64,000 nucleotides of DNA from Cladocopium goreaui (lineage: Eukaryota; Sar; Dinophyceae; Suessiales; Symbiodiniaceae), in assembly GCA_947184155.2 (NCBI GenBank), contig CAMXCT020001476.1, forward strand, positions 1-64,000, written 5' to 3'. Position 1 is the stretch's first letter; each line of letters begins with the position of its first letter. This document shows positions 6,401 to 64,000 of this stretch, piece after piece. The notes under the pieces were generated by a model. It was given only the letters and a program-made list of their open reading frames with translations, searched no databases and was not told the origin of the DNA. Both the position numbers and the translations under genes were made by a program.

Positions 6401-9145
6401 CGATCAAAGTTTGCGTAAATTGGAAAAATTCACCAAACCATGTTTGATTACCAAAGGGTAGTTTCATTTGTTTGTAAATTCCCATTTATTGTTGATGAAC
6501 CAATAAGTTTGGGTTTGTCTGACGTTAGGGCAGCCCCAAGGTTGAGAGTTATCATGTTCCTTATTTTCTAACCTGGAAGCTCTAAGTAGTTTCTCAGCCC
6601 CTCATTTCGTACCGAATATGGATGCCCTTGGCTCCTTAGTTCCCTTGTAACCACTGTTTTTTTTGCGTCTTTTGCACTTAGTCCCAAGTGAAACTTGGGG
6701 ATGCAAACAGTCAGTTGCCGTGCTGCCAACACCAATGTTGAATTGCAAATTAGCATGGCCTGTGTGCTCATTGAAACGCACTGGGCGTTGCATCAAGAAA
6801 AGAACAACCGGTGACCGTGACCAGAAGCCCCTCGAACTAATCTTGCAATGCTGTCTCAATGAACAGGAATCGCCGAAGCCGCTGAGCCATGATGGGCATG
6901 TGAGAAAAGCCCGGTATGCAGCGATCAATCAATAGGTTCAAGGTAATGGCAGGTGACAAACCAAGCATAGATACCTAAAAGTTTGTGACATTCGAAAAAG
7001 AATCAGTATGAAATTTGCCTGGCTGCGCCGTGTGCCAGATTGGAACTTGAAAGGCGCTTGCTGCGGCAGCAACTTCTTAGGCTGCTGCTGGGCCTTCAGC
7101 ACGTCCCCAATCCCCACGATTCAAATTTGCAAACATTCCTGGATCAGAGTTTGATGAGTCACCGGCAGCTGGGCCATGAGCAGAAAGCTCGACATGTGTC
7201 TCCGCACATCTTCTTCAAGTTTCGTGGCCGAATGGAAACACATCGGCCACTCTCTAATCGAATGCCATATCGACCTGTGGAGCTGATGGTCGTGATCACC
7301 TCTCCTTTCATTCCACAGCAGCTAACATCTGCGAGGTCTCTCAGAATGAATCGTTACCCAACCTGAAAGCCGCACAGTAGCAGAAGGCTCATCTGCAGAA
7401 TGCAGAAGTGGTTTTTCCACTTTGCTTGACAACACGGTTGGTCATAGTATCCCTTGCGTGTGGCTGCTGTGGGACTGGCCAGGCTGTTGGTTGTAACAAA
7501 CGAAGCCCTGTCACGATCCAGTCAACTTGCAGATCAACAGGGTCACCCGTAGTAGAAAAACTGAACATGGCATGTTCAATCAACCTGAAAGCCAACGGTC
7601 TCCGACAAGTCTTGCATTGCAAACTGCGCTGGCTACTACATGTTTGTGCTGACTGCCTGAGTCATCATAGTTTGCTGTTCGCATCTCTGAAGGTCGCATC
7701 TCTGAAGAGTCAGTGGGAGACAAAAGCTCTGCAAGACAAACTGTTCGAGGCTGCAGGGCCCTTCTAGGGCCCTTCTACTTTCCGATGTACTGGTAGGTGA
7801 TACACCTGCGGCTTTGTCCATCAAATGAGACCAGGGCACGCAGTGCTACAGTGCCATCCCAAAGTGAAAGGAAAGCCAACATAGATCTTGTATATTGATC
7901 ATTATTGATCTTAAAAATATCTAAAGCTCTGCTCCACCCCATCAGAGCTGCGTCAAGCCAAGATCCGGTGGCAGCATGGCCTGGATTCGAAGGGTTTCCT
8001 GGGAAACCCAGGGTTTTGGGCATGAACCTAGGGTTTTTAGTATGATCACGGGTAAACCGAGGGTTTCACTTCATACCCGACAAATTTTAAGGGTTTGGAT
8101 GCTAAGGGTATGTATCTTGTATCAGCACGAAGCGTCATGGCAAAACTAGGAGAAAGCTCAACTACCTGTTGTGCCTGCCGACCTCTGGGAGGGTTGCGCA
8201 ATCACGGCTCTTGAGCCAAAATGGCTACGGACCTTCTAATCACTGGATAGTCAATCATTATTGACCAAATTCACTAGTATTAACTTGTAACACTACCTGA
8301 CCCAATAGACATTAAGTAGTACGTATTATTAGCCATTGACATGATATAACTACAAACAGTAGCTATTAACCACCGGAGGAAATGAAAGTGCCAAGTGCGT
8401 TTCGCCAAGCTGCTTCCCTGTCTCTGAGGTAAGGGTCTCCCGCATGTTTTCGATGGCCTGCAGCCAGGGGGATGGCTATGGCCGTAATTTTCACCAACAA
8501 AGAAAACGCCTTAAGTTTGTTGAAACATCAAATATTTAACGTTGCATAAAGATGTTATACCAGTAGTACCGCACAAGGCGGTGGCGGAAGTTCCCAGGAT
8601 AGGGAGCCAATAGGAAAGGTGAGTTGTTGTGACGCATTGATGGCAGAGCGAGCCCACTGATGGACCGAAAGGTGATTGAGGCTCTGAATCTCTCTCTCTC
8701 TCTCCCTCTCTCTTTCCCCCTCTCTCTCTATCTCTCTCTCTCTCTCTCTCTGTCTCTCTATCTCTCTCTTTCTCTCTCGTTCGTTCCCTCTCTCTCCCCA
8801 TCTCGCTCTGTACCTATCTATCTGTTTGCCTGTCTATCTGTTTAACTGATAAACTTTATCTATCTCTCTGACTATCTATATCGATATCCTTCTCCATCGC
8901 TATCTCCTTCTCCATCTCTATCTATCTATCTGTCTGTCTGTCTCTCTGTCTGTCTATCTATCTGTCTGTCTATTTGTCTCTCTGCCTCTCTGTCTATCTG
9001 TCTACCTGTCTATCTGTCTATCTGTCTATCTGTCTATCCGTCTATCTGTCTATCTGTCTTTCTGTCTCTCTTTCTGTCTAACCTAACTGTCTATCTATCT
9101 GTCTAGCTGTCTGTCTATCTGTCTGTCTATCTGTCTGTCTCTCTA

Positions 9146-20800: not shown

Positions 20801-23484
20801 TTTATCACAGTTTATCACCATATAAGTCTAGATACCATTGTATTTTACATACTCTTGTGATCTCTTGTGGTGCTAACATCTCCCAACCATCCAACTATGC
20901 AAGTGTCTAAAAATGTACGGTATACCCTCAAATAGCAAACTAATGCAAACTTAATAGGGATATGCGGGATAAGTATGATTCAGCTGTGGATGCCATGGGG
21001 ATGAAAGGGTATCCTAAAATTTCAGACACACCCAACTATCATACCATTGGTTGTGTATCCCATTATATCATATACCCTCAACAGTTTGCTCTGGAAATCA
21101 CCATCTTTAAAGCTAGCTGAATGATCCTTAAGTATCCTTAAGTTACATGGGCCATGGCTTCCATAGCTTTGTCAGTTTACTGGGCGGTATCCCCATAAAA
21201 CAGTTGGTCCAATCCCCATTTATGACTCCAACAGATATGCCATCGAGTTGCTGGCAGCTGGTTAAGAATGATATTCCCATGACAAAGCCCAGCTCGTTTT
21301 GATGTGTTCTAATCCAGTTCTGAACTTATATAGGTCGTTATAATCTACCCAGCTAGCTATGTTATATCCCAGTGGATATAACTGATATAACCCATCTGGG
21401 TCATTATATCCTATGGTTGATCCAAAGGGTATCCCATCCGCCGCCATCTGCCGGGACTGCCGGGGCTCCGCACCTCATGCGCCTGCAGCCGCTTCTGCAG
21501 CGATGTCAAGCGCTCAGCTTCCGCCTTCAGCCTCTCGCTGCGTTCTTCCTCGATGAAGGCCTCGATCTGTTCGCCTCGGCTTAGCCATGAAAAATGTGGG
21601 GAATGTTGGCTTTCGAGGAACTGCCAATTCCTGGGAACCCAAGATGGCTGTCATGTCATGTATTGAACCTGATTGAACTCTTCCTTCGTTGGTTATACAA
21701 GTTAAATACATTTATAGAAATACAACAGCTATGCAAGCCAGCAGAACGATTAAACGTCATTTTCCCTATCAACATGGCCATAAATTGGGGTACACCCCAT
21801 TTCCAGACACACCCAAAAGCCACTAAGTCGTTGGCTAAACAAAGCAAAATCCAAAGTGTTCATGGTTAAATCCCAATTCTTCATAGGTAAATCCAATAAA
21901 TGTCATTCACAACCAAAAAAACTCATTTTTCATGTTGAAATCCACCAATCCCGTTTTTCTGACTAGCTAAATTAACCTTCAATGGCCATGTTCAATAGCT
22001 ATGTAACGAATTACCAAAGGGTAAATCCACCCCCATTTTTCCAAGGCTCGGGTTTTCGTCCGCTCGACTGTTACTTGATCCTCCAAGCGCTTGACCAAAC
22101 GCTCCTGGTGAAGGCGCGCCGCGGCGCGCCCACGAGATGGGCCAGTTGTAAAATAAATAGATGATCAATAAATGACTGATTATAATTAATGGTTGTAGTA
22201 TTTAATTAATGGTTGTAGTACTTAATAATTATCAATAGATGTAATAAGTACTTAATTATGGTTTAATATCATTTATCCATATTTATCCAAAATCTTATTA
22301 ATAAGTTGCAGAATATAACCCATATGCTTCATGATACTGGAATATGTACCAACAAGTCTCGCAATCATCGCCCAAGTGTAGGTAACTATTCCAGCACCAT
22401 GGAGCATATGGGAATTAACCCCGAAAAAAAATAGATACATATTCCCAGGAATGTAATTATATATAGTATATACCCTCTGGTTATTTAACATAGCCATGGA
22501 AAATGACCCATAGAAATAGATGATTTTCCCAGCTAGAAACCTCCATGTATAAGGGATTTTCCATGGCTATGTTAGTCATAACCAGAGGGTATAAATAATA
22601 TGATCTTTTATCATATGTTCCAGGATTCCAACTTGTTCAGCATCTTGTTGGGGCCATGGAAGGTCACTGGCGTTGTTTAAACACACAATATACCCTCAAA
22701 TCTATTGGATTTTAAAATCATAATCCTTCCATTAACCGGGCCATTGGGGGTATCCCGGATTCCAGACAAGCCCCATTGGGCTTATAACTGGATATGTATA
22801 TATATATACACACATATTATTACATATGCAATATGTATATTAAAATAGCCTTCACTAGGGGTGATGACCGGAGGACCGGATGACCGGAACTATCATCCCT
22901 TTAGTAGGGTTTTCCGTTTTCAACCTTCATTTCCTACTGTGAGTGGGTGGAGGCTATGTCTAAATCATCCATTTGGTTCAATGATTTTCAGATTTTTAAT
23001 ACCCATTGAGTAAGGGATTTCCCAGCCTTGCCATGCTTGATTACCGGAAGGTACTACCAGTAACTGACTCCACGGCCCATCCAAGTACGTTCATAAGGTC
23101 AGTGATGTGCTGGAATCTACGTGACTGTGCTTTCACTAAATGAAAATTCTTCAGTCACCATGAACCTGTGTCTATCTTCGCGCACCGCAGTTCCATGACT
23201 AGGAATCCTACAACATTCAGAGGCACCAAGTACACCCAAAATCGGCACCAGCCGGGCGTGACTGCGATTGACTCCAGAACAAGCTCCTCTGCGTTCTGAA
23301 CGATTTCATTCAGCTCTTTCTTGTTGTCATCCACTTGCTCTCCTCAGTTGACACCAAATTAACACCATCCTTTTCTGGGACAGCCGTTTGGAACAGTTGG
23401 ATTTTCAAATTTCCAAGGTGTTCCGAGGCCCCTTGCAACACAACTGATAATCTTTATAATATCTACTGATATATATATATATAC

Positions 23485-25251: not shown

Positions 25252-27999
25252 CATCATCCTGCCCATCAGCTTTCCGAGCTGCTCATCTCGGCCAAATGCC
25301 TCAAATGTTCTTCTCGAAGTTCCTCGTCCATTCGCAGTCGCTCCGTCCTTTCCTCCTCCAGCGCCCGTGTCATCTCATTTCGTGTCTTCTCGCGCTCCAA
25401 GTCGGCACTGTCCTGCCATGGCAGCCTAAAGGATTTTATGGGGATTTCATGGGATTTCATAGTGATGTTGATGGAATTTGATAGGATTTGATTGGATTTT
25501 AGGGGATTTAATTGGGATTTAACCAACCAAAAGAGATCATTCATGCCCAATTTGCGCTGAAACGGATTGTCTAAGCGAGCTTCAATGGGAGGTGTGTTGT
25601 TGGGTTTACAACCCTATTTTGTTTAGGTACATCTGTGTTTGTTAGACCAAGGGACTATGACGATTGTCACTTGGTATTGATGTGTTTTGATATGTTTTGA
25701 TGTGTTTTGATATGTGTTGATGTATTATCATAATTATCAATATCATTGTTGGGGTAAAGGCCGGTAAAGGCCCATTGTATTGGTAGGCTCTACCACCACT
25801 TTCGGTCATCAGTTGTGAGTTGTGAGTTTCATTTATTCTAAGTTGCAGTTCCGTTGGCTGGTTCCAAGTTGCATTTCTTGATTGTTAGCATCCCAGTCAA
25901 CAAGTGTTCGATAGCCGTGGTGGCAATATGTACACGAGTCCTGTTGGTCCTGTGTATCATTGTTGGTCAACTACTCATGGTTGTTAGTCATGGTCGTTAG
26001 CCACTTACGACTTACGCAAGCAAACAAACATCCACACTGGGGGACCTTTACAACGACTCGAGTGACTTTGCAGCCATCCGGCAATCAAATGCAATCAACT
26101 ATCGGTAGCTACCAGCAATCACCAGCTTTGAAATTCCCATCCCTCCTTCCATGCCAGGCTACCATCAGCTCCCGACGAGTTTGGTACCTGAAATTGAACA
26201 AATACCATCTGGTAGCGAAACATGGCAATGGGAAATGTCCCTCTATATCATGAGTTTCTGTTGCAACCTTGGATGAATGGAGGGTATGTCTGCTTCATTT
26301 CAACTAACCATCCCATCCCTACCCTACTTGGAGGATCATCCCACTTAATAACTGGCTAGTAAGTGGGGTTATAACTCACCTAAAAATCAAATAACACTAG
26401 GAATCGGGCACTAACCACCCCAGACCCATCATTCTAAGCCTCGCCCCCATCTCGTGGTATCGAAAGTCCTGAATCTTCTGCAGGGTTCGAGTTTCCAAGT
26501 TGTTGAGGGCCATCATGGCTCGACCTTCCAGTTCGTCCTGGCTCGAAGCAACCTCTGTGTCGATGTGTCTGGGCAACAATAAATAAAGCAATACACATGT
26601 GGACAAACAAAATCGGTGGGCATAATTATCAAGATGTGTAAAGTGGACCTATGCCAAATGTTGGATGACAAGAAAAAATTACTTTACTTCGTGTGATCTC
26701 CACCATGACATTTACAAATTTATACATTTTCTTACTGGCAAATCTTCTGGCATTCTATCTGACATATCTTCTGACATTCTATCTGGCATTCTATCTGGCA
26801 TATCTTCTGACATTCTATCTGGCATTCTATCTGGCATATCTTCTGGCATTCTATCTGGCAAATCTTCTGGCATTCTATCTGGCATATCTTCTGGCATTCT
26901 ATCTGACATATCTTCTGGCATCCTATCTGGCATTCTATCTGGCATATCTTCTGGCATATATTCTGACATATCGTTTGGCATTCTATCTGGCATATCTTCT
27001 GGCATTCTATCTGGCATATCTTCTGGTATATCTTCTGGCATATCTATCTGGCATATCTCCTGGCATATTTTCTGGCATTCTATCTGGCAAATCTTCTGGC
27101 ATTCTATCTGGCATATTATCTGGCAAATCTTCTGTCATTCTATCTGACATATCTTCTGACATTCTATTTGGCATTCTATCTGGCATATCTTCTGGCATAT
27201 CTTCTGGCATTTTATCCGGCAAATCTTCTGGCATTCTATGTTTGTAACTTTCTTCTGCACATTCTTTGTCCCATATCTTCCTACATGAGGTCCGGCAGGG
27301 AACACTTGGCGTGGATACTCGCGGTTGAGGTCCGGCAGGGAACACTGGGCGTGGATGGTCGTGGTTGAGGTCCGGCAGGAACACTGGGCGGGGATGATCG
27401 TGGTTGAGGTCCGGCAGGGAACACTGGGCGTGGATGGTCGTGGTTGAGGTCCGACAGAGAACACTGTGCGTCGAGGGTCGCGGTTGAGCAGGAGGAGGAG
27501 GAGAGGAGAGGAGGAGAGGAGAGGAGGAGAGGAGCAGGCAACTGACATAAAATCTAACAACCCTCACCTGGCAGGTGGGGAAAAAATATATATATATACA
27601 GTATATATATATATATTGTAAATATGTACATACCTACATCTGGCTGAATCATCCTAAGTCACCCACCAAAATCATTTTTTTGAATCCAAATGAATACGGG
27701 GCGTACATACATACATACATACATACATCCATACATACATACATCCATCCATGCATACATACATATATATATATACATACATACTTACATACTTACATAC
27801 TTACATACATACATACATCCATCCATGCATACATATATATATACATACATACATACATACTTACATACTTACATACTTACATATATATATACATACATAC
27901 ATGAATACATACATACATACATACATACATACATACATAAATACATACATACATACATACACTAATTACATACATACACTAATTACATACATACACTAA

Positions 28000-28030
<31 letters not shown>

Positions 28031-31000
28031 CATTACATTACATTACATTACATTACATTACATTACATTACATTACATTACATTACATACATACATACAT
28101 TACATACATTACATTACATTACATTACATCATATTACATTACATTACATTACAATACATACATACGTACATACATACATACATACATCATACATACATTA
28201 CATTACATTACATTACATTACATTACATACATACATACATACCATTACATTAAGTTACGTTACAATACATACATACATACATACATACCATTACATTAAG
28301 TTACGTTACAATACATTACATTAATACATATACACATACATACATACATTACATTACATTACATTACAATACATTACACTAATACATACATACATACATT
28401 AATACATACATACATTACATACATACATTACATTACATTACATTACATTACCATACCATACCATACCATGCCATACCATACCATACCATACCATACATAG
28501 CATACATAACATACATAACATACCTAACATACATAACATACATACCATACATAACATACATACCATACATACATACATACATACATACACTAATTACATA
28601 CATACATACATTAATTACATATATACATACATTAGTTACATACACTACATTACTTTACATTGCATTGAATTACATTACATTACATTACATACATACACAC
28701 ACATACATACATACATACATGCATACACACATACATACATACATACATACATACATACATACATACATACATACATACATACATACACATACATACATAC
28801 ATACATACATACATTCCATACGTACGTACATACATACCATTACATTACATTACAAAAAAAAAAAGTACAATGACACATGCATTACAATACATTACAGAAC
28901 ATTACATTACATTACATAACATAACATTACATAACATTACATAACCTAACATTACATTACATCAATACATACATACTCACTTACATACATTACATACATA
29001 CATACATACATACAGACAGGCAGGCAGGCAGGCAGGCAGACAGGCAGACATTACATACTTACTTACTTACTTACAAACAAACATACATACATACATAAAT
29101 ACATACATACATTATATACATACATACAAACTTACTTACTTACATTACATACATACATGACATGACATGACATGACATGACATGACACGACACTACATTA
29201 CATTACATACATACATTACACACACATATATATATATATATATTAGTACATGATTCTACATGTATATTGTGTACATCTTTATTATGTATAATGTGTATAT
29301 TTTTTTGACCCCAAAACGGGTCAGATCCCAAACATGATAAGCAGTTTGTGGGTCCCTTGGCGCCGACGACTAGACCCATACCCATATGTTTGATATAGCT
29401 ACAAATCCTCATTTTCATGGTTAAATCAACCAAAAAATCCTGCCAAGGATTTTATGGTCAAAGTTAAATCCAATAAACAACAATTACTGTAAGAGCGCGT
29501 TGAATGTGTGATTTAACGGTTCAATCCCTATTTCTCATGGAACACTAGATTTGTTTAAGGGAAAATCTACTGGAAACCATGGTTTTTCCATGTTTTTCCC
29601 ATGCAGTATGGATGTTTCCTGTTGATTTTCCCATAAACCAATCCACTGAATGGACGAACCCCCCCATGGAAAACCCCTGTCTTTCCGATCGGCGCCTGCC
29701 CCTTCTGCAGGGCCGAGAGCCGGGCGGCCGAGACTTGCTCCTGCTTGGCGAGCTCCGCCTGCAGTTCGTATGGAAATCCTGGGAACTGGGGAATAAACCA
29801 TATGAATTGTAGGGTTTATATGGAGAATATGGAAAATATGGAGAATTACCATTATTGCTATGAGAATATATATTATAGAAATAACTAATATCCATTATCT
29901 AAATTATAATGGGGAACATAATTACTATGAATACACAACTTCTGCCCATGTTTGATCGGAAAATGATGATTAACTATGGGATTCTCAATGGTTTTAAACT
30001 GCAACTATGAGTTTTGGGAGGTACCATCCAGGAAATTCAGATCGATATGGAAATGCATGGCTGTTTTTTTGTACATCTACAAACTGCCGAAATTCCATGT
30101 CCATGTAATACCTTACGTATACTTATATCAGTCTACTTGAGAGTAGCGAATTTGAGGCAAATTCTCAACCCTCCCAGCCTTCATGTCGAAGACTGCCTGT
30201 TGCGTCCTTCCACCCCTGAGCCGCGTGAAACGTATCATTACCTTATGCCATGTGGAATCGCCATCCCCCTTCTTAGATGGGAACAAAAAACACATGTTTA
30301 CAACATCGAACTGATAAAGATGGTTTCACCAAAGTTAGGCCAACAACCTACCAGGAACTCCCAGGCATTTCATGTTTAGCCAATTTGGAAATGATAATTA
30401 TCTTCCTTGGTGTTGTCCAGCTCTGGCTTGGATACCCATCTTTACTACCTGTGGTTTACCCTTGTCGTACCTTGCATTTCAGCCTTTCACTCTCTCATCC
30501 AGGAAGCGATGCACACACTAGACAAGAAATGGATCATTGAAGTGATCCGTTCGGAACTGAATCCCCTCACATGCAGTTAGATTAGAAACACACCTGAAAG
30601 GCATGTACCTGCCTGGATCATCTGTCATGTTGCATGTTGCATCAGAAACATGAGCATCAGCGAAAAAAGAGGTTTCTGGCTGTTCGGATCGGCTTCGCTA
30701 GAGTAAAGATGAAAGTTCCAAGCTGTCGCAAAGACAGCAGGAGCGGCGAGACGTTGCAAAAAGTGGAGAACGGAATGGCCGACTGTTTCACTTTACTTAA
30801 ACGAATTCTAGGTTAAATTGCGTAAATTCGGAAGTCAAGTCTGTCCACATTCTCCCTAAAAAGGGATGCCTCACGGCACCATGTCGGAGCCACCATGGAA
30901 ATCACACTAGATAAGAAATGGATCATTGAAGTGATCCGTTGGGAACTGAATCCCCTCACATGCAGCTAGATTAGATTCAATGACCTAAGGTCCGGTTCTT

Positions 31001-34000
31001 GGCTTAGCCGGTTGCCATTGACGATAAACTGGAAAATTGCATGTACGTTTGCACGACGACATAGATGGGTCTTCGTTGGCCCGTGCCATCTATGCGTCCA
31101 CGGGCCCCCTCCAGAAGTTTTACACCTGTTCAGATGTTACACACACACACACCCGGCCGGAGCCGGGTCAACCCTGAAAGGCAAGAGGAAAAGAAAAAGC
31201 GGACACAAACGACGGGCAGAAGGCCAAAAACAGCGCAGGGGGGAAGGGAACAAACGGACCACCAGAACCAACCTACACGGCGAAACGGACCTAACCGGCA
31301 CAGGGCACACATGCACCTAAACCCCACGACACATTACAGAGGGGCACGGGGGAGAAATTAGGGACCGAATGGGGGACTAGTTGGTGAAGCCACACCTGGA
31401 AGGCATGTACCTGCCTGGATCATCTGTCATGTTGCATGTTGCATCAGAAACATGAGCATCAGCGAAAAAAGAGGTTTCTGGCTGTTCGGATCGGCTTCGC
31501 TAGAGTAAAGATGAAAGTTCCAAGCTGTCGCAAAGACAGCAGGAGCGGCGAGACGCTGCAAAAAGTGGAGAACGGAATGGCCGACTGTTTCACTTTACTT
31601 AAACGAATTACTAGGTTAAATTGCGTAAATTCGGAAGTCAAGTCTGTCCACATTCTCCCTAACAAGGGATGCCTCAATTGGATCCATGGCATCATGTCGG
31701 AGTCACCATGGAAATCACACTAGATAAGAAATGGATCATTGAAGTGATCCGTTGGGAAGTGAATCCCCTCACATGCAGTTAGATTAGAAACAATGACCTA
31801 AGGTCCGGTTCTTGGCTTAGCCGGTTGCCATTGACGATAAACTGGAAAATTGCAGGTACTCTTGCACGACGGCCGTTTGCACACACACACAATATATATA
31901 TATATATTTTTTACATATACACATTATATATATATATATACACATACATGTACTATGCCAATGCTTGCGGCTTAATCTCTCGCTTCTGATGGTCAAATGA
32001 TCCTGTTACTTGATCAACCCCAACGTCCATTTGTAAACATGCCATCTTGGCTGGTTCAATCATCAATTCTCTGCATTTATATACATGTTAATGAACACTC
32101 CAATTTTCACCCAGGTGTGAGTCCGAAATTTCCTCCTCACCTTGTTCCCAAGATGGCTATATCGTGTTGGTCAAATCCGTTCAATGGATTGGTAGGAGCA
32201 ATTCACAGGAAACCATGGCTTTTAACATGGACGGTTTCCTGTAAAATTTCCCTTCAACCCATTCTGAGATAGTTTCAACACTCATCTCCAAAAGACCACC
32301 AGAGTTATGAAAGTCAGGGATCATGATCCCAATTATTGGGATGACTGGAATCAACTGCGCCATTCAAAAGTACCCCCATCCCATCTCATTATACTAGCTA
32401 CTAGTTGGTTGATAGATTTCGGGTAGTTCATAGTTCCCAAGTTCCCAAGTATAATTCCTTACAATAACCAATCAACTCATTTACCAATGCTATCCCAATG
32501 TTTTTCCTAGTTAAATCCCCTTATGATAAACCATCAACCATCATTTTGAGCTCTATCATGTTATATATGTATATCTCTATATACATGTTTGGTTTGATGG
32601 TTAAAACCCACATAACTCCTCATGATATCTTATAATAATATCCAATGAAACTAGGATATCTGTTCCTTAAATCCCCATGGTTTTCCTCTTAATCCCATGG
32701 TTTGGTGAAGGCGCTGGATGGTCTGCACGTCGTTCACCTGGCGCATCAAGCGACCCTCCGCATCTCCTTGGAAGACGTCCGCAGAAGGTAATAGGGGTGA
32801 AAGACTCTAAAATATTCATACTATACTGTAAGATATATACCATGTATCTAGAATTATTTATTATGAGTGTATGTGTATGTATGTACATACATACATATAC
32901 ACATACATATACACATAAATATACATATACATGTACATGTACAGGTACGTGTACGTGTACATACATATACATATACATGTACATGTACATGTACATGTAC
33001 TACCATATACCGTATCCTATATCCAAACACCGTCTATGTAGTGTGGCCTATATTTTCTGGTTTGATCATAAACATCCATCACATCATTGCCCAGCCATGG
33101 TCCATACTATCTTGATAGTAAAGAATCAGCGAATCAGTGTCAAACAGAATTAAAGGGAAACAAAACAGTTCTTGGCTCACAAAGGAAATCCGTGGTTTCC
33201 CCTAGGAATTTCACAGCTGATTTGAGGTCATGAAATTGATGCTCCCGACACCAGATCAGATATACTATGTTCAATGTTCATGTATGTTTTGTGAGGATGG
33301 GAAAACGGTAGGTCCATTCAAGGGCGCTGAGCATATATATATGTATATATATATATATATTATTTAAATTTATATATGGTACATATAAGATCATATAAAA
33401 AGATACAGATACCCTCTGGTAAACTAACATAGCTATTGAAAATGGCCATTTATAGTGGATTTTCCCATTAAAAATAGCTATTTTCCATAGCTATGTTAGT
33501 TTACCAGAGGTAAACATATATGCCAAGCTCCCGACGTTCAAAACGAGGTCGGGCCAAGGGGCTCAGCTCTTGCTGCTGCGCTCGGGCGGTGCTGTCCAAG
33601 CGCTCCAGGACGCTGCCCAGCTCCGTCTGCGGATAGATCACCAAGCATAGTGGGGATGGTTCGTAACGGTTAGTAATGGTTAGTAGTGAATAGTTATAAC
33701 TGTACATAACATAAACCATGTAATGGTTAGTAATGGTTGTATGATCATAAACCATGTATGATCATAAACCCATAACACTAACTACCCTCTGGTAATTTAA
33801 CGTAGCTATTGAAAATGGCCATTTATAGTGGATTTACCCATGAATAATGGCCATTTTCAATAGCTATGTTAAATTACCAGAGGGTAGTTAGTGTTATGGG
33901 TTTATAACCAAACATTATCATCAGCCTTATTTAGTAATGGTTAGTAGTGAATAGTGGTTATAGTGGTTACCCTGGTAAACTAACAGTTTGCTATGGGAAA

Positions 34001-53672: not shown

Positions 53673-53709
53673 GTTTAGGGTTTAGGGTTTGAGGGTTTAG
53701 AGTTTAGGC
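53673..53709 (+). repeat. Interstitial telomere-like TTTAGGG run
   Basis: TTTAGGGTTTAGGGTTTGAG followed by GGTTTAGAGTTTAGG: two perfect and three imperfect TTTAGGG units, ending at a trinucleotide array. Confidence 0.7.
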
Positions 53710-56750: not shown

Positions 56751-58763
56751 CGTCAGGTGCACTTGGCCATGCATATGATATTGTACCCACGAATATTTGC
56801 ATGTATTATTTACAATTATTTGCATATGGAGGTTTCTTAAATTGGGGGTACTCCCAAATAATGTATTTACAATCATTTATCATTTATAGATGGATTTCCC
56901 ACTATCAACCATCATAAACCATCCATTTTGGGGTACCACCATTTTAGGAAACCTCCATAATTATATTCGCACAATTATATACATAATACAGATGTAAATG
57001 CTCAAGATCCAGGTGGGTGGATGGATAGATGGACGGACGGATGGATGCACACATGTTGAAATGTTTTTATGTATCGCAATTCTACATGTACACATCAGAT
57101 GGATATTGGTCCAACCAAATATGATGTAGGTATACTATGCCTTTCCATGGTGACCTCGCGACCTCGAACAAGTGACCTTGTCTGACAGGAGATGATCCCC
57201 CGAAATATGCGACATCCAAGAGAGGCACCTGCCTGGCTGAAACATGACAAGCAGGCGGCTGACCGGTTTGTGGTGGTCAGCGGTCAGCTGTCTGGAGGTT
57301 ACCCAGTTCTGATGGTTCTGTGAGATGCGTTCCCCATCTCACCTCAGTAGGTATTGAACCTCAAGAATCGCCCATTCCCTGAGAATCCGCGTCTTGAAAC
57401 GGGTCAAACATAGTCTTGTATGCAATTATGTCCATTGTTTCAAACCATTGAGTACATTGTCGGAATTAACGATGCTTGTCGGAAAAAGGGGCTTTGATAA
57501 TGGAGATTGCTTTTTTGAGTGGGGTGTTGGAGTTGACAAAGAGCATGATGGACCGTGACACATGGTGACGTAGACCAAAAACTGTTGTGACGGGCTATGT
57601 GGAACTCCAAGGCCTGCTGGAAATTTTCCCTTTCCAGAAATGTCTTGAAGTAGCACGTCGGTCGCCAAATTTCAGGGAATGCCCCAGAGCTGACACATCC
57701 AAAATGTCAATCCATCATTCTTTGGATTCACAGGGATTGGCTTACGTTGGTTTACATCATCTACATTCATCTACATTTTACATCGTATATTCCATGGTAT
57801 CCTAGGGTTTGTTGCTTCATCCACTTTATCCCATGATGTTTGGGACGTGGAGCCGCTGCCCGGAAACGCAGGTCCTGCGCTTCTACGGCTTCTTCCAGGA
57901 GACGGTCACGGAGCGGCCGGACGAGAATGCCCGCTACAGACACGTGTCCATCATGTTCCATATGGAAGATGGCACCATGAGCATGCACGAGCCCAAGGTA
58001 GGGTGGCGGGTACCAAGGGTACCAAGGGTACCAAGGATACCAAGGATACCAAAGTTTGGGGGTATGGCGAAGAAATATATATGACTGACTCAGAAATGGT
58101 GAGTTTAGGTGAGGTATATATACTGTACCGCATTTAGAATCATCCACCATTGGATGATTTCGAGAAGATCTAAAGAATCACCATCGGCGATACTGCGGCT
58201 GCCCCATCGTTGCCATGGCCAGGTGGAAAATTCGGGCCTCGCTCAAGGCCCCTTCCTGAAGAGACAGAAAGTGATGCGGCAGGATGGCATGGCCTATTTG
58301 GGACCCGATGATTTGAAGGTGGGCCAAGAGATCACCATCTACGGCCGCACCATTCACATCAATGGATGCGACCGATTTACCCGCTGGTTCTTTGAGCACC
58401 TTGGACTGTTGCCGCAGGTTCCGATTCATGGCCTTGGCCTCATGATGTTCTCAGTTTTGGTCCAAAAAGAGAGGTTACTCCGGTGCACGACACGTTGAGT
58501 GCATGGGTTTGGAGAAACGAAGAAAAGTAAAGACCCCCCGATATTTGACAAGAAAAACATGGAAAACCCATGGCTTCCTGTGGATTTCTCAGGCTTTTCC
58601 TTGGATCACTCCAGATGTCCACACCTCAGGCAGAATGGCATCTGGCTTCCTCCTGAAGAACCGGTCGTCGAGGACCAGTGGCAGAAGTCCTACAAGCTGA
58701 AGAAGATGATCGAAAGAGGAGAAATGCCTCTGTCGCGGGCTTCGGTTGATGTGGCTCGGCTGA
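56654..58763 (+). CDS. EFHC/Rib72-type DM10-domain protein gene, partial (five exons)
   Basis: Five plus-strand exons (56654-56750, 57189-57254, 57872-57997, 58223-58417, 58634-58763) join in phase. They read DKQVLRFYGFFQETV, then an EPKVENSGLAQG join, ITIYGRTIHINGCDRFTRWF, and a charged linker. This is the first DM10 domain of the EF-hand-containing EFHC1/EFHC2/Rib72 family, which has three DM10 domains and sits as a microtubule inner protein in axonemal doublets. The order of the landmarks, hydrophobic VLRFxxxFxE, E(P)xVENSGxxQG and YGRxxxxxxCDxFTRxF, is as in the family. One intron uses a GC donor (CAAGCAG|GCGGCT). N-terminal exons, DM10-2, DM10-3 and any EF hand are not seen; after 58763 comes a trinucleotide array, then the unrelated ORF cluster. 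It is transcribed in the opposite direction to the coiled-coil gene. Confidence 0.85.
56824..56958. mobile_element. Family-3 inverted-repeat element in an EFHC intron
   Basis: ATGGAGGTTTCTTAAATTGG at the left is mirrored by ATTTTAGGAAACCTCCAT at the right. It lies between the first two EFHC exons found. Confidence 0.65.
57189..57254 (+). CDS. EFHC exon leading into DM10-1
   Basis: Acceptor TGACAG, GC donor, 22 codons ending APAWLKHDKQ, which joins in phase to VLRFY, the usual start of DM10-1. Confidence 0.7.
57872..57997 (+). CDS. EFHC exon, DM10-1 first half
   Basis: Acceptor AACGCAG, donor CCCAAG|GTAGGG, 42 codons, phase 0 to 0, with RHVSIMFHMEDGTMSMHEPK. The next intron has five GGGTACCAAG units at 58007-58056. 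Confidence 0.85.
58223..58417 (+). CDS. EFHC exon, DM10-1 second half
   Basis: Acceptor TGGCCAG, donor CCGCAG|GTTCCG, 65 codons, phase 0 to 0. VENSGLAQGPFLKRQKV and ITIYGRTIHINGCDRFTRWF are diagnostic of DM10-1. Confidence 0.88.
58634..58763 (+). CDS. EFHC exon, linker after DM10-1
   Basis: Acceptor AGGCAG, probable donor CTGA|GTAGGG. It reads NGIWLPPEEPVVEDQWQKSY, then a basic stretch and RASVDVARLSR. Entry phase 0 fits. Confidence 0.7.
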
Positions 58764-58972: not shown

Positions 58973-59024
58973 GTAATGCTAATGCTGATACAAATGCTAA
59001 TACACATGTAGATACAGATGTCCA

Positions 59025-59108
59025 CACACTAGACAAGAATGGATCATTATATGATCCGGCAGGAACTGAATCCTGAAACATGCAAACCAGCCTAGATCGT
59101 TAGATTAG
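59025..59108. repeat. Dispersed hairpin repeat DR1, copy 4
   Basis: Matches the 30.5-31.8 kb copies over ACACTAGACAAGAA...GGAACTGAATCC, with a changed but still paired stem. A second shared piece follows at 59503-59625. Both lie between the EFHC exons and the intronless ORF cluster. Confidence 0.75.
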
Positions 59109-59709
59109 TAAAGGAGCCACATGAGGTACTTCTCGAAAACGATGTAGGGCATCCAATGTTGTCAAACGAAGTCAAAACCAGAATCCATAGAGTTTTAACC
59201 AGCATGTTGAGAATCCACAATAATGTTTCGGCGATTGTTTCCCAAAATAACCCATAGTCGTCGGCGACATCATCTCGGCGAAAATAAATCAAAAAACATA
59301 ATACTGTCGGCGATATGGTTTCGGCGAAAATCCGAGGAAGGTTCTGATGCATGTAAAAGTCAAAAATGATTCCAGATTGCGACAACAGTGCAGCAAATTG
59401 TATAATATTGTTGTTGGGGTTCTAAGCTTGGCCCCTTGCTATGTCGGAGAAAGCAGGTACGTGGAGTTGATCAGACTCCATATCCTAGTCAACTGCATGG
59501 AGCTTCGTTGGCGACAGCCATGCAGCGACCCTGTCGCCCCCTGCAAACTAGTGAAAACCAATCAGAAGTTTTACATCTGTTCAGATGGTACACACACACA
59601 CCTCGCATATAGCGAGGTTGGATTTTTTGGAAGAACTTCGCTGGCGGAATCGGCAATACACCAGTGAGAGTGAACCTGTAAAAACCAAATGTACAAACGG
59701 GCGATCACT

Positions 59710-60435
59710 TCAGTCAGAAGAAGAATTCGGAGCTTGTAGAAGGACTTCGAAAGCATCGTGGAAGCTCATGCGTTCAACCATCGCCCACGTCTCATTGAAT
59801 TCCCCAGATGCCGTAGCAGCCTTCAAGGCCTCAGAAAGATCCGTGGCTAATTCGTGGATCCGGGTGGTAAGGCTCGGTTCCTCTGCTGGAGATGTCGTCT
59901 CAATGGGCACATTGTGAAAAGGATGGTGTCCGTGTACAAGGGGAATCTCGAAATGATGTCGCCAATAGTCCGCTGTACGTAGGGACCACTCCCAATTGCC
60001 CGAAAGACCATAAAAGTAGTGTTCAGGGTCACGACAGCGGGAAACCCCTAGCAAGGGGATTTCTTCAATGAAAAGCTCCCTGGTGTTGTTGGAGTGGGTA
60101 ATGACCTTGAATTGGATCTGGTGAACCACGCGAGAAGAGAATTGAGCACGATGGAGGTAGTTGTGTGCAGAACTTGACTCCATTGGAAACGGGACACAAG
60201 GAGGTGCTGGTCCTGAATATGTATCAGGATGGGCCATAGTATCCGTGGCAGGTGCCGTACTGTCAGTGACCAAAGGTGCCGACGTAGGGTTGGTCGTAGT
60301 GTCGGGAGCTCCTGAGTGACATAGTGCAGAAGTCTGGGCGTCTGGTACTTGAACTGGATTGGTAGGAGCGAGTTCACGGGTAGGATTCGAAGGCCAAGAC
60401 AAGCCCGCCACGGTCGCGTCTCGTTTGTGTTCCAT
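59710..60435 (-). CDS. ORF A: unknown protein, paralogue of ORF C
   Basis: 241 codons from the Met at 60435 (the frame is open to a Met at 60561, which would add a hydrophobic stretch, DASAVVALFLAF, possibly a signal or membrane segment). Residues about 20-90 are Pro/Thr/Ala-rich and probably disordered. The rest looks globular, with SNNTRELFIEEIPLL and SLRTADYWRHHFEIPL; both align with ORF C (RSDELWIVE and TLRTTANHWRRYYDVPI). The C-terminal part is helical and acidic, ending in NSSSD. No intron, frameshift or known domain is seen. It is last in the minus-strand series E-D-C-B-A, 260 bp after B. Function unknown. Confidence 0.75.
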   Translation of the reverse strand: MEHKRDATVAGLSWPSNPTRELAPTNPVQVPDAQTSALCHSGAPDTTTNPTSAPLVTDSTAPATDTMAHPDTYSGPAPPCVPFPMESSSAHNYLHRAQFSSRVVHQIQFKVITHSNNTRELFIEEIPLLGVSRCRDPEHYFYGLSGNWEWSLRTADYWRHHFEIPLVHGHHPFHNVPIETTSPAEEPSLTTRIHELATDLSEALKAATASGEFNETWAMVERMSFHDAFEVLLQAPNSSSD

Positions 60436-60698
60436 GGGTGAAACTGTCACAAATGCGAGAAATAGTGCAACAACGGCTGAAGCATCAAGAAATGCAGAAA
60501 AAAGCCAATCCCGAAAATGATAATATTCACAAAAATGATAAAAGTGAAATCCAGTCCTCAAGCAAGTGGGTCAATTGCGACGGAGAAGCCACAGCTCAAA
60601 GTCAAATAAAATAGAAATCGAAGAATCCTGTGTGTTAGTGGGTTGTCAAGGAAGAATTGAAAACCCTCTAGCATGGTCTTTTTTGGCCGGCTAGCGTA

Positions 60699-61292
60699 TC
60701 AGGGCAGGATCACACCGGAGCTAATTTTGTAGCATTGCAAACGTAGTACGAAAGGCTGTCTGGTACCCGGAATGAGGAAAGAAGATTCACGGGAGTTGTA
60801 CTGCCGAAGTCGCCATTCAGGTCGGTATTCCTCCAAAAGCTGCAAGACCGTCATATCATTGGAAACTTGGAATGTCTCACCGTCCAGGTCGCAAAAGCGA
60901 AACTCCAGATTCGAGGGATCAATTTGGATGTCCCATTGGGACCTCAATCTTTTGGAGATACAGAAGCGAAGTTCGGCAATTGGGATGAGGCCGGCTTCAA
61001 CTGGTTCCATCTGACGTGACCAGGTAAACAAAGCTGCAAGTTCAAAGCCACTGACATGTCTAAAATTGGAGTTCACCAGAGCCATGTAGTGTTCACGGTC
61101 AGGTTCGCTTCGGTGAGTCAATGCCTGTAGGGGAGAGAAGTCAACCAAGATAAGGACAGGTCTGTTTGGAGGAGGGTTCGCATCACCAGGAAGGCCTCGA
61201 TGTCCAGCAATCCATCCAACGGTTCGTGTACCAAGCGGTGTCTCAATCGTGGATGTAGCGCGATATGGATTGGGTCGAGAAGAACGAGCCAT
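60699..61292 (-). CDS. ORF B: unknown protein, paralogue of ORF D
   Basis: 197 codons from the Met (MARSSRPNPYR) at 61292; the frame is open to 61334. A short basic/Pro-rich N-terminus precedes a globular region with RPVLILVDFSPLQAL, QWDIQIDPSNLEFRFCDLDG and YRPEWRLRQYNSRESSFLIP. Each block has a counterpart in ORF D (RPVIFQLDLKPMQQL; RWSIHLPASEF; FYPRW and RECSPLLLTP). No catalytic motif or known fold is evident. It is intronless and lies 182 bp after the end of C. Function unknown. Confidence 0.75.
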   Translation of the reverse strand: MARSSRPNPYRATSTIETPLGTRTVGWIAGHRGLPGDANPPPNRPVLILVDFSPLQALTHRSEPDREHYMALVNSNFRHVSGFELAALFTWSRQMEPVEAGLIPIAELRFCISKRLRSQWDIQIDPSNLEFRFCDLDGETFQVSNDMTVLQLLEEYRPEWRLRQYNSRESSFLIPGTRQPFVLRLQCYKISSGVILP

Positions 61293-61473
61293 TGCGTCGA
61301 ATGTGAAGTATCGAGGATAAAGCGAAAAGCACAAGCTGCAAAATGGGTTGGAATAGCCACAGAAACCAGCTCAAAGTGTTAGAAATGAACGAGAAACGGT
61401 GTACCTAGTAAATGGTCACACAAAGAGACGATGAATCACAGGTCTTTTTCCTGCCGACAAATAATGTGGTATA

Positions 61474-62163
61474 TTACACACTTGAGTCCGACGTATCCAT
61501 CGGGTCAATATCATTCGCATCCAGCGGACCATGTACTTGTTGAGGAGGGACAGCGGGGCGAGTGAGATGTACAGTACGTTGTAGTGTTGCCGGTGGGGAA
61601 GAAGGTGGTGTAGACCGCCAGGGTGGCCAATATAAAGAGGTAGTAGTTCCTTGAGAATGGTGTTGGGCAGAGCGTCCCCAGCATGACTGTAAAATATGGA
61701 GGTGGTCCGGTATCGCTTCGTACGGCTGTGAGACAGAGACGTTGGAGTGTTCAGGGTGTGGTAAAACGGGAACAGTAGTTGCCGTAGGGAAGGAGGATGA
61801 TGATTGAATTGGTACGTCATAGTATCTGCGCCAATGGTTAGCTGTAGTACGCAAGGTCGCCTGGTCGTTGGTGAGGTGCATGTTCTCCAGGAATGTTTCC
61901 ACTGGTTTCCACGTTTCAAGACCATCAAGTGTCCTTTCCACGATCCAAAGTTCATCTGAACGGTTAGACAAAGGATAGCTCAGCTTCTTGATGAAGACGG
62001 AGTGGACAGTGGTAGAGGTCGGAATCATTCTCGCTGCACGAGGAATATAAGATGCCGAGGTAGGATCATCAGATGGCAAGTGTGAGGCAAGGCCATGTAT
62101 GGATGTAGGTGGTGAACGGTGCGAGACCAATCGAGCAGGATGATCCGTGTTGGAGGTCATCAT
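61474..62163 (-). CDS. ORF C: unknown protein, paralogue of ORF A
   Basis: 229 codons, Met-Met start at 62163/62160. The N-terminal 50 residues are Ser/Pro/Thr-rich. The middle region (SVFIKKLSYPLSNRSDELWI, TLRTTANHWRRYYDVPI) aligns with ORF A in the same order. The C-terminal 80 residues are Ser/Thr/Pro-rich and end with acidic DPMDTSDSS. Overlapping frames are shadows. It is intronless, between D and B. Function unknown. Confidence 0.75.
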   Translation of the reverse strand: MMTSNTDHPARLVSHRSPPTSIHGLASHLPSDDPTSASYIPRAARMIPTSTTVHSVFIKKLSYPLSNRSDELWIVERTLDGLETWKPVETFLENMHLTNDQATLRTTANHWRRYYDVPIQSSSSFPTATTVPVLPHPEHSNVSVSQPYEAIPDHLHILQSCWGRSAQHHSQGTTTSLYWPPWRSTPPSSPPATLQRTVHLTRPAVPPQQVHGPLDANDIDPMDTSDSSV

Positions 62164-62382
62164 GTACGATCACAAGAGTATGATAACGAGAAATACTGAA
62201 CTGAAGCCAAAAGGTCGTGGGGAAGGTCAATGATGAAGGAATAAATAACGAATATCACCCAATGGAAAACGAGAAAAGGATGACACAAGGGAAAATCAGA
62301 ACCGGGGTGGTGGACATCATAACGAATGTTGGTCTTTTTCCTCATAGACATGAGCCGTGCCAAGATCCATCAAGACAGCTAA
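62164..62382. other. Spacer between ORFs D and C
   Basis: 219 bp with no repeat and no recognised promoter motif. With the other short spacers (about 180-260 bp) it shows how tightly the cluster is packed. Confidence 0.5.
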
Positions 62383-63009
62383 TCACTCAGCGGCTTTAGT
62401 GTATCGGGTGGCCGTGACGAATGGATGCCCACGTGGAATCACTTGAACATGTACAGCAAAGCCGGTGTCTTGTGCATCTGGATGGGGTGTCAGCAGCAAT
62501 GGTGAACACTCACGGGTCGTGAAGGCATCGAGATGTTGATGAGTTTTCCATCTCGGGTAGAACCAATTCAAAACATCCAGAAGAGAATGAGGAAGGTCGT
62601 CAAGCATCTGAGCTCCTTGATCGGTGTCAATCATCATGTAGAACTCCGACGCTGGTAGGTGTATGGACCAGCGTTGTAGCAACGTGTCGGTGACGACGGT
62701 TTTGAGGTCTGAAACGAAATGACTGCGAGCATAGTCCGGGTAGATCACCTTGAACGTCTGGAACAAGCTGTCATAGGTGGCCGTAGGAAGGTTGCCCGCG
62801 ACTTTGGGGTTCAAGATGTTGTAATAAGGGTTGCGTACGGCCAGTTGTTGCATCGGCTTCAGGTCCAACTGGAAAATAACCGGTCGGTGAGGTGTCGGAG
62901 GCGAAGACCGGTTGGGTGGGTGCTGAAATGACGTAGAGCCCATAGCGGAAGATGACGTCCTGGTTGAAGAGCGTGAGCGTCGTGTAGGTGAGATCCTCTC
63001 GTGGGACAT
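62383..63009 (-). CDS. ORF D: unknown protein, paralogue of ORF B
   Basis: 208 codons if it starts at MSHERISPTRR (63009), the position that matches the start of ORF B. The frame is open to 63219 with Mets at 63054 and 63117; the longest form adds a hydrophobic segment (LAFLLGIFFLLIF). A Ser/Arg/Pro-rich N-terminus is followed by the B-like region: RPVIFQLDLKPMQQL, LLQRWSIHLPASEF, LNWFYPRWKTH, RECSPLLLTPHP. No known domain. The longest form would begin 10 bp after the end of E. Confidence 0.7.
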   Translation of the reverse strand: MSHERISPTRRSRSSTRTSSSAMGSTSFQHPPNRSSPPTPHRPVIFQLDLKPMQQLAVRNPYYNILNPKVAGNLPTATYDSLFQTFKVIYPDYARSHFVSDLKTVVTDTLLQRWSIHLPASEFYMMIDTDQGAQMLDDLPHSLLDVLNWFYPRWKTHQHLDAFTTRECSPLLLTPHPDAQDTGFAVHVQVIPRGHPFVTATRYTKAAE

Positions 63010-63229
63010 AGCTCGCTGTTGGCAATAGCGGTCCAGGTGAACGCGGAGAGACATAATAAATGGCTGGCGGGTTGTGTGATACGACGTGTCAGAATTCAAT
63101 GGGACAACAGCGCCCATGGTTCTGAAGATTAACAAGAAGAAAATTCCCAAAAGGAAGGCCAACTGGTTGGTGAAACAGGAATACCGTACCGCAACGTACC
63201 TTTTTCTTTTGGTTCGCATATGTCATTGG

Positions 63230-63861
63230 TCAGCCAAGTTGGTCTTTGATCTTATTCCACATAGAGCGAACATCTTCTTCAGACTTGCCCATCTTGGTCG
63301 AGATCACCTTCCATGAAAATCGAGATTTCTCGTCAGCCTTCAGAGTGCGTAGTTTCTGTTTGTCTTCAGAGGTCCAGAGTGACAGTGGGCTCGAGGAGCG
63401 GGATCGGGATTGGTCACGTCGACGACGACGCTTGGCAGGAGCCTTTGGAGCGGATTTGGCTTTCTGTTTGCGACTTGGCGGTGATGGTGTTCTAGTAGAA
63501 AGCTTCGAAGGTGCAGGTAAAACATCAGGAGGCGGAGCAGCAACATGTTGGTGCGGCTCAGGGAGATGGGTTTCCACCAGTTCATCCATAAGTGTCTCTT
63601 CCTCCTCCAGATCCGGCGATGGGATGGGGGCATTGTCAATGAAGGCATTGGTCTGGTCCGAATAGTGTGGTCGTAGCCCATCAGGTTGATTCCATACGTC
63701 TGTACTGGGAAGAGGAGTAGGTTCAATGTTGGGAATGAGTGTAGGTGGTAGTAGCGCCATTGCTCGATGTAGTAGAAGGTAAGCATGGTGAACATCATGA
63801 AGAAATTGAAGAAACACTGGTTCTTGGATCGGAATTGACGTCGTAGGAGACGAGGAAGCCA
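63230..63861 (-). CDS. ORF E: Myb/SANT-like putative DNA-binding protein
   Basis: 210 codons from the Met (MASSSPTTS) at 63861; the frame is open to 63946. The middle is acidic (DLEEEETLMDELVE), followed by a Lys/Arg/Ser-rich nuclear-localisation-like stretch (AKRRRRRDQSRSRSSS). The last 50 residues, LWTSEDKQKLRTLK through FSWKVISTKMGKSEEDVRSM to WNKI, have the tryptophan spacing and helix pattern of a single Myb/SANT repeat. It probably binds DNA or chromatin. It is first in the cluster seen here; the window ends 139 bp upstream, so more genes may precede it. No intron. Confidence 0.75.
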
Positions 63862-64000
63862 TGACAATGCGTCGAGTATGGGCCAACAAGTAAATGAAGC
63901 CGAGTTTGAGGGTAAGCCAGCTAGAAAAGCACTGTTCCGTGATCAAATAAATTCAAATAAGGTCCAAAGGGGTGAGACTTTCAGCAAGGTGTGAGCAATG

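Follow-up and report, generated by a model that had tools for sequence, protein, structure and literature searches.

At the end of a 64,000-nucleotide stretch of the Cladocopium goreaui genome (contig CAMXCT020001476.1, positions 1 to 64,000 of the forward strand; hereafter the window), five open reading frames (ORFs) lie head to tail on the minus strand. It is probable that they represent a resident nuclear gene cluster of this dinoflagellate, in which five or more distinct genes, all lacking introns and on one strand, are packed in the style of an operon and expressed by trans-splicing. In the direction of transcription the genes are E, D, C, B, and A, and two of them, D and C, are old paralogues of B and A, respectively. 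The cluster may run past base 64000, beyond the end of the window. Since it combines at least three families with a junction signal that recurs and a pair of genes duplicated together, it would be a compact place for testing co-transcription and trans-splicing. In addition, one pair of otherwise dark proteins receives a ubiquitin-fold assignment that can be tested.

The cluster and its reading frames

The minus-strand stretch 59710-63862 (4.2 kb) holds five intact intronless ORFs of 197-244 codons, counted from likely ATGs. They are gene E (63230-63862, 210 amino acid residues), gene D (62383-63117, 244 residues), gene C (61474-62163, 229 residues), gene B (60699-61292, 197 residues), and gene A (59710-60435, 241 residues). 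These coordinates start at the ATGs judged most likely, whereas an original prediction, made from the sequence alone, had started from upstream TTG or ATG codons. Every ORF begins at an ATG and ends at a stop codon of its own, and three different frames are used among them. The spacers between the genes are 112-263 nt long. The spacer between E and D is indeed short, as originally predicted, but it is 112 nt rather than 10 nt in length if gene D starts at 63117.

Such an array is not expected by chance. When the cluster region was simulated 2000 times with a first-order Markov model, ATG-initiated ORFs of at least 197 codons on one strand occurred 0.036 times on average and never more than once, compared with the five observed; the other strand has none. 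In addition, a leave-one-out analysis of codon usage, trained each time on the other four genes, ranked the gene's own frame as the best of six for all five ORFs, with a small margin for gene D (0.233 vs 0.176). The compact intronless five-ORF cluster proposed in the original prediction is thus borne out.

Duplicated gene pairs

It was found that gene D resembles gene B and that gene C resembles gene A. With the longer, mechanically defined ORFs, the BLASTP E-values were 2e-8 for D vs B and 7e-7 for C vs A. The local alignment scores were 100 (shuffle maximum 55) and 87 (shuffle maximum 72), respectively, and none of 500 shuffles was as good in either case. Among the other eight gene pairs, the best was C/B, for which 14 of 500 shuffles were as good. 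Gene E is unrelated to A-D in the pairwise comparison. Judged by these alignments, D-C and B-A are tandem duplicates of one two-gene unit in the same order, as had been noticed by eye. The duplication must be old, because the identity is only 27% for D/B and 28% for C/A. The two cassettes share no long nucleotide repeat, and the spacer alignments have little in common beyond the AAAAAGACC motif. The persistence of open frames at this level of paralogue identity argues for selection acting on the proteins.

Signals at the gene junctions

In the tandem gene arrays of Amphidinium carterae, polyadenylation sites of the AAAAG/C type occur together with AG trans-splice acceptors (PMC2488372). The junctions of the present cluster fit this pattern. 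An AAAAG-type site begins at most 44 nt after the stop codon in four of the five genes. The putative polyadenylation site after gene E is AAAAGAAAAAGG (63199-63210, minus strand), which contains AAAAG and starts 20 nt past the stop codon. The putative sites after D (62331-62339), C (61441-61449), and B (60675-60683), all on the minus strand, are identical copies of AAAAAGACC and start 44, 25, and 16 nt past the respective stop codons. No AAAAG-type site was found in the 150 nt past the stop codon of gene A. In the whole window, counting both strands, AAAAAGACC occurs three times, always past the stop codons of D, C, and B, with about 0.9 occurrences expected from a second-order Markov model. 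In a random control of 20,000 sets, each made of five 60-nt minus-strand stretches with repetitive stretches excluded, a 9-mer was shared by at least three members 9 times and an 8-mer 50 times. These junction-signal tests were designed after the sequence had been seen.

Putative trans-splice acceptors on the minus strand were found ahead of four genes. CTTCAG precedes D (63122-63127, 4 nt to the ATG), C (62201-62206, 37 nt), and A (60477-60482, 41 nt), accounting for three of the four chosen acceptors, and TTGCAG precedes B (61336-61341, 43 nt). The 20 nt preceding the AG are 85% pyrimidine for D, 75% for C and A, and 70% for B. The choice is not unique in every case: gene C has a second AG candidate 32 nt before the ATG and gene A has one 8 nt before the ATG (both 70% pyrimidine), while the AG chosen for gene B ties with two AGs further upstream. 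For gene E, no clear acceptor AG was seen in the 138 nt that remain upstream within the window.

It is likely that the RNA of the cluster is processed by these signals. One precursor RNA would run from E through A and be cut into separate mRNAs. Each mRNA would be polyadenylated at the AAAAG-type site directly past its stop codon, and the spliced leader would be added at the AG acceptor shortly ahead of the next ATG. Both the use of the signals and the co-transcription of the five genes are inferred from the sequence. As for the origin of the gene order, an ancestral two-gene unit, predicted to have encoded a ubiquitin-fold protein followed by its partner, was tandemly duplicated long ago to give D-C and B-A.

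Predicted gene products

The protein of gene E is rich in serine and proline and has a basic stretch (KRRRRR) and a Myb/SANT-like domain at the C-terminus. As in Myb/SANT DNA-binding domains, 45 residues near the C-terminus (residues 163-207) match Pfam PF13921, with an E-value of 3.2e-4. However, gene E has a single repeat, and the score of 21.3 bits is under the curated cut-off of 22.9. The original description of E as Myb/SANT-like is supported, albeit below the Pfam cut-off; given the E-value, gene E is likely to encode a divergent member of the family.

A ubiquitin-like beta-grasp fold, which has the order b-b-a-b-b-a-b, was predicted with low confidence for the gene B product. On the basis of the similarity to B, it may be guessed that gene D also encodes a ubiquitin-fold protein. 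No significant sequence match was found to RAWUL, PB1, and ubiquitin-like beta-grasp domains (RING1B, PCGF1, and Cdc24), and unlike in these domains, strands 1 and 2 of the B model are separated by inserted helices. Neither the RING finger nor the WD40 domain of the RAWUL proteins of Polycomb repressive complex 1 was found in B or D by Pfam. The C-terminal Gly-Gly of ubiquitin-like modifiers is also absent, as B ends with VILP and D with KAAE.

For gene A, the AlphaFold2 model has a mean predicted local distance difference test (pLDDT) value of 47.9, with ten-residue means of 63-80 across residues 101-170. It comprises a small b-b-b-a-a core and a low-confidence N-terminus rich in serine, threonine, and proline. 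A fold comparison with this model gave no convincing match. More than half of dinoflagellate genes are dark (PMC11453091), and the genes of the cluster are best read as dark genes, with A and C having no assigned fold. It is conceivable, if doubtful, that E uses its Myb/SANT-like end to bind DNA or chromatin and that B and D each pair with their co-duplicated partners, A and C, in a nuclear complex. It is similarly unlikely, and slightly more so, that the locus is a true dinoflagellate operon composed of a DNA-binding E and two diverged, obligate ubiquitin-fold/partner pairs (D-C and B-A), which were co-duplicated and are served by a locus- or lineage-specific cleavage signal, AAAAAGACC.

Alternative origins of the cluster

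The original prediction had suggested that the cluster could belong to a novel element of mobile or viral nature, or that its genes were recently acquired, and both possibilities were assessed. For a mobile or endogenous viral element, the hallmark genes would have to lie past base 64000, and AAAAAGACC would mark the gene ends of the element itself. The orphan status of the proteins in Pfam and PHROGs, the compact coding, and the repeated junction word agree with such an element, as would an extension of the cluster beyond the window. Its visible part, however, gives this origin no support. As had been reported from inspection, no replication, capsid, integrase, or transposase family was matched, either in Pfam by the five ORFs (C, D, and E were searched twice) or in PHROGs by the cluster proteins. 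Pattern scans of IMG/VR with six queries (A, B, D, E, the B/D alignment, and the A/C alignment, gene C being covered only by the last) gave no confirmed relative. The model of gene B had no match at an E-value of 0.001 or better in a viral structure library; the best match was at 0.038, and the second, at 0.076, was a megavirus ubiquitin-like protein. No second copy of A-E was found within the window. Only three inverted pairs, 14-15 nt in length and chance-like, occur in 59-64 kb, where the far end of the cluster is outside the view, and the visible part has neither terminal repeats nor hallmark genes. At 0.47-0.50, the G+C content of the cluster differs little from the 0.45-0.48 of the adjacent 51-59 kb and shows no break, and the junction word matches host polyadenylation sites (PMC2488372). 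A mobile or viral element is thus improbable. A recent acquisition likewise finds no support: the composition agrees with the neighbourhood, and the junction signals resemble those of published dinoflagellate nuclear genes. Horizontally transferred genes that were fitted with host signals later would account for orphan proteins (Pfam, PHROGs) and for intronless genes beside an intron-bearing one. In the genomes of GTDB, however, a scan with the B/D alignment (the only query used there) gave pattern matches in 156 stretches, none of which was confirmed as a relative. Single-exon genes are in any case common in some dinoflagellates, making up 24-26% of the genes of Polarella glacialis (PMC7245778). 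I therefore consider a transfer very unlikely.

The remaining alternatives concern how the ORFs are expressed. Retroposition is rampant in dinoflagellates and polycistronic expression appears to be rare (PMC11453091), so that five retroposed single-exon genes could be transcribed singly rather than together. Against this, no significant spliced-leader relic precedes any of the five ATGs, and the kept order of D-C and B-A suggests that two linked genes were duplicated together; independent retroposed genes seem highly unlikely. The least credible explanation is a conventional one, in which one or two spliced genes would contain the ORFs as large exons. A neighbouring gene is inferred to be spliced, and introns would fit in the spacers, but every ORF has its own start and stop, AAAAG-type sites follow four of the stops, and the A/C and B/D repeat units are each confined to one ORF.

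Surroundings of the cluster

Exons of the neighbouring gene, which is convergent with the cluster, lie on the plus strand at about 57870-58410. The joined translation of two inferred exons matches Pfam DM10 with an E-value of 1e-26, and the gene is presumably EFHC1-like. Between this gene and gene A, just downstream of the latter, there are short dispersed repeats. One, at 59563-59601, is 95% identical to 31112-31150. Another, at 59023-59084, is 81-83% identical to copies at 30512-30575 and 30903-30964.

An exact dinoflagellate spliced-leader sequence, CCGTAGCCATTTTGGCTCAAG, was found at 8210-8230 on the minus strand. It is followed by AGCCGTG and has no GT donor, and it is possibly a relic of a retroposed mRNA. 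Along with the junction signals, this sequence speaks for the dinoflagellate origin of the window. Elsewhere, at least three stop-free minus-strand stretches (21414-21650, 25269-25613, and 29570-29815) encode charged, leucine-rich, coiled-coil-like peptides that are similar by eye; a single long gene may have these as recurring exons. About five copies of the telomere-like seven-base unit TTTAGGG lie internally at 53673-53708.

Comparison with known gene arrays

The dinoflagellate tandem arrays described in PMC2488372, PMC7245778, and PMC11453091 consist mostly of a single gene in repeated copies, and the extent of co-transcription and trans-splicing of linked genes is unsettled there. The resident, trans-spliced cluster proposed here shares several traits with the arrays of A. 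carterae (PMC2488372): the genes are on the same strand and are intronless or intron-poor, the spacers are short, an AAAAG-type site lies past the stop codon, and an AG, here a putative acceptor in four of the five genes, lies ahead of the ATG. In contrast, the A. carterae arrays consist of near-identical copies of one gene, whereas different families are found here and even the paralogues are only 27-28% identical. The predicted untranslated regions in the cluster are also shorter, with lengths at or under the lower end of those in the A. carterae arrays.

P. glacialis has same-strand gene clusters with less than 5 kb between genes, which are not limited to one family (PMC7245778). The use of one strand, the single exons, and the close spacing are common to these clusters and to the present one. 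Since the unidirectional clusters of P. glacialis span families, the same-strand order alone is ordinary. On the other hand, the tandem single-exon blocks of P. glacialis belong to one family, whereas the C. goreaui cluster joins unlike genes 112-263 nt apart and contains a duplicated pair.
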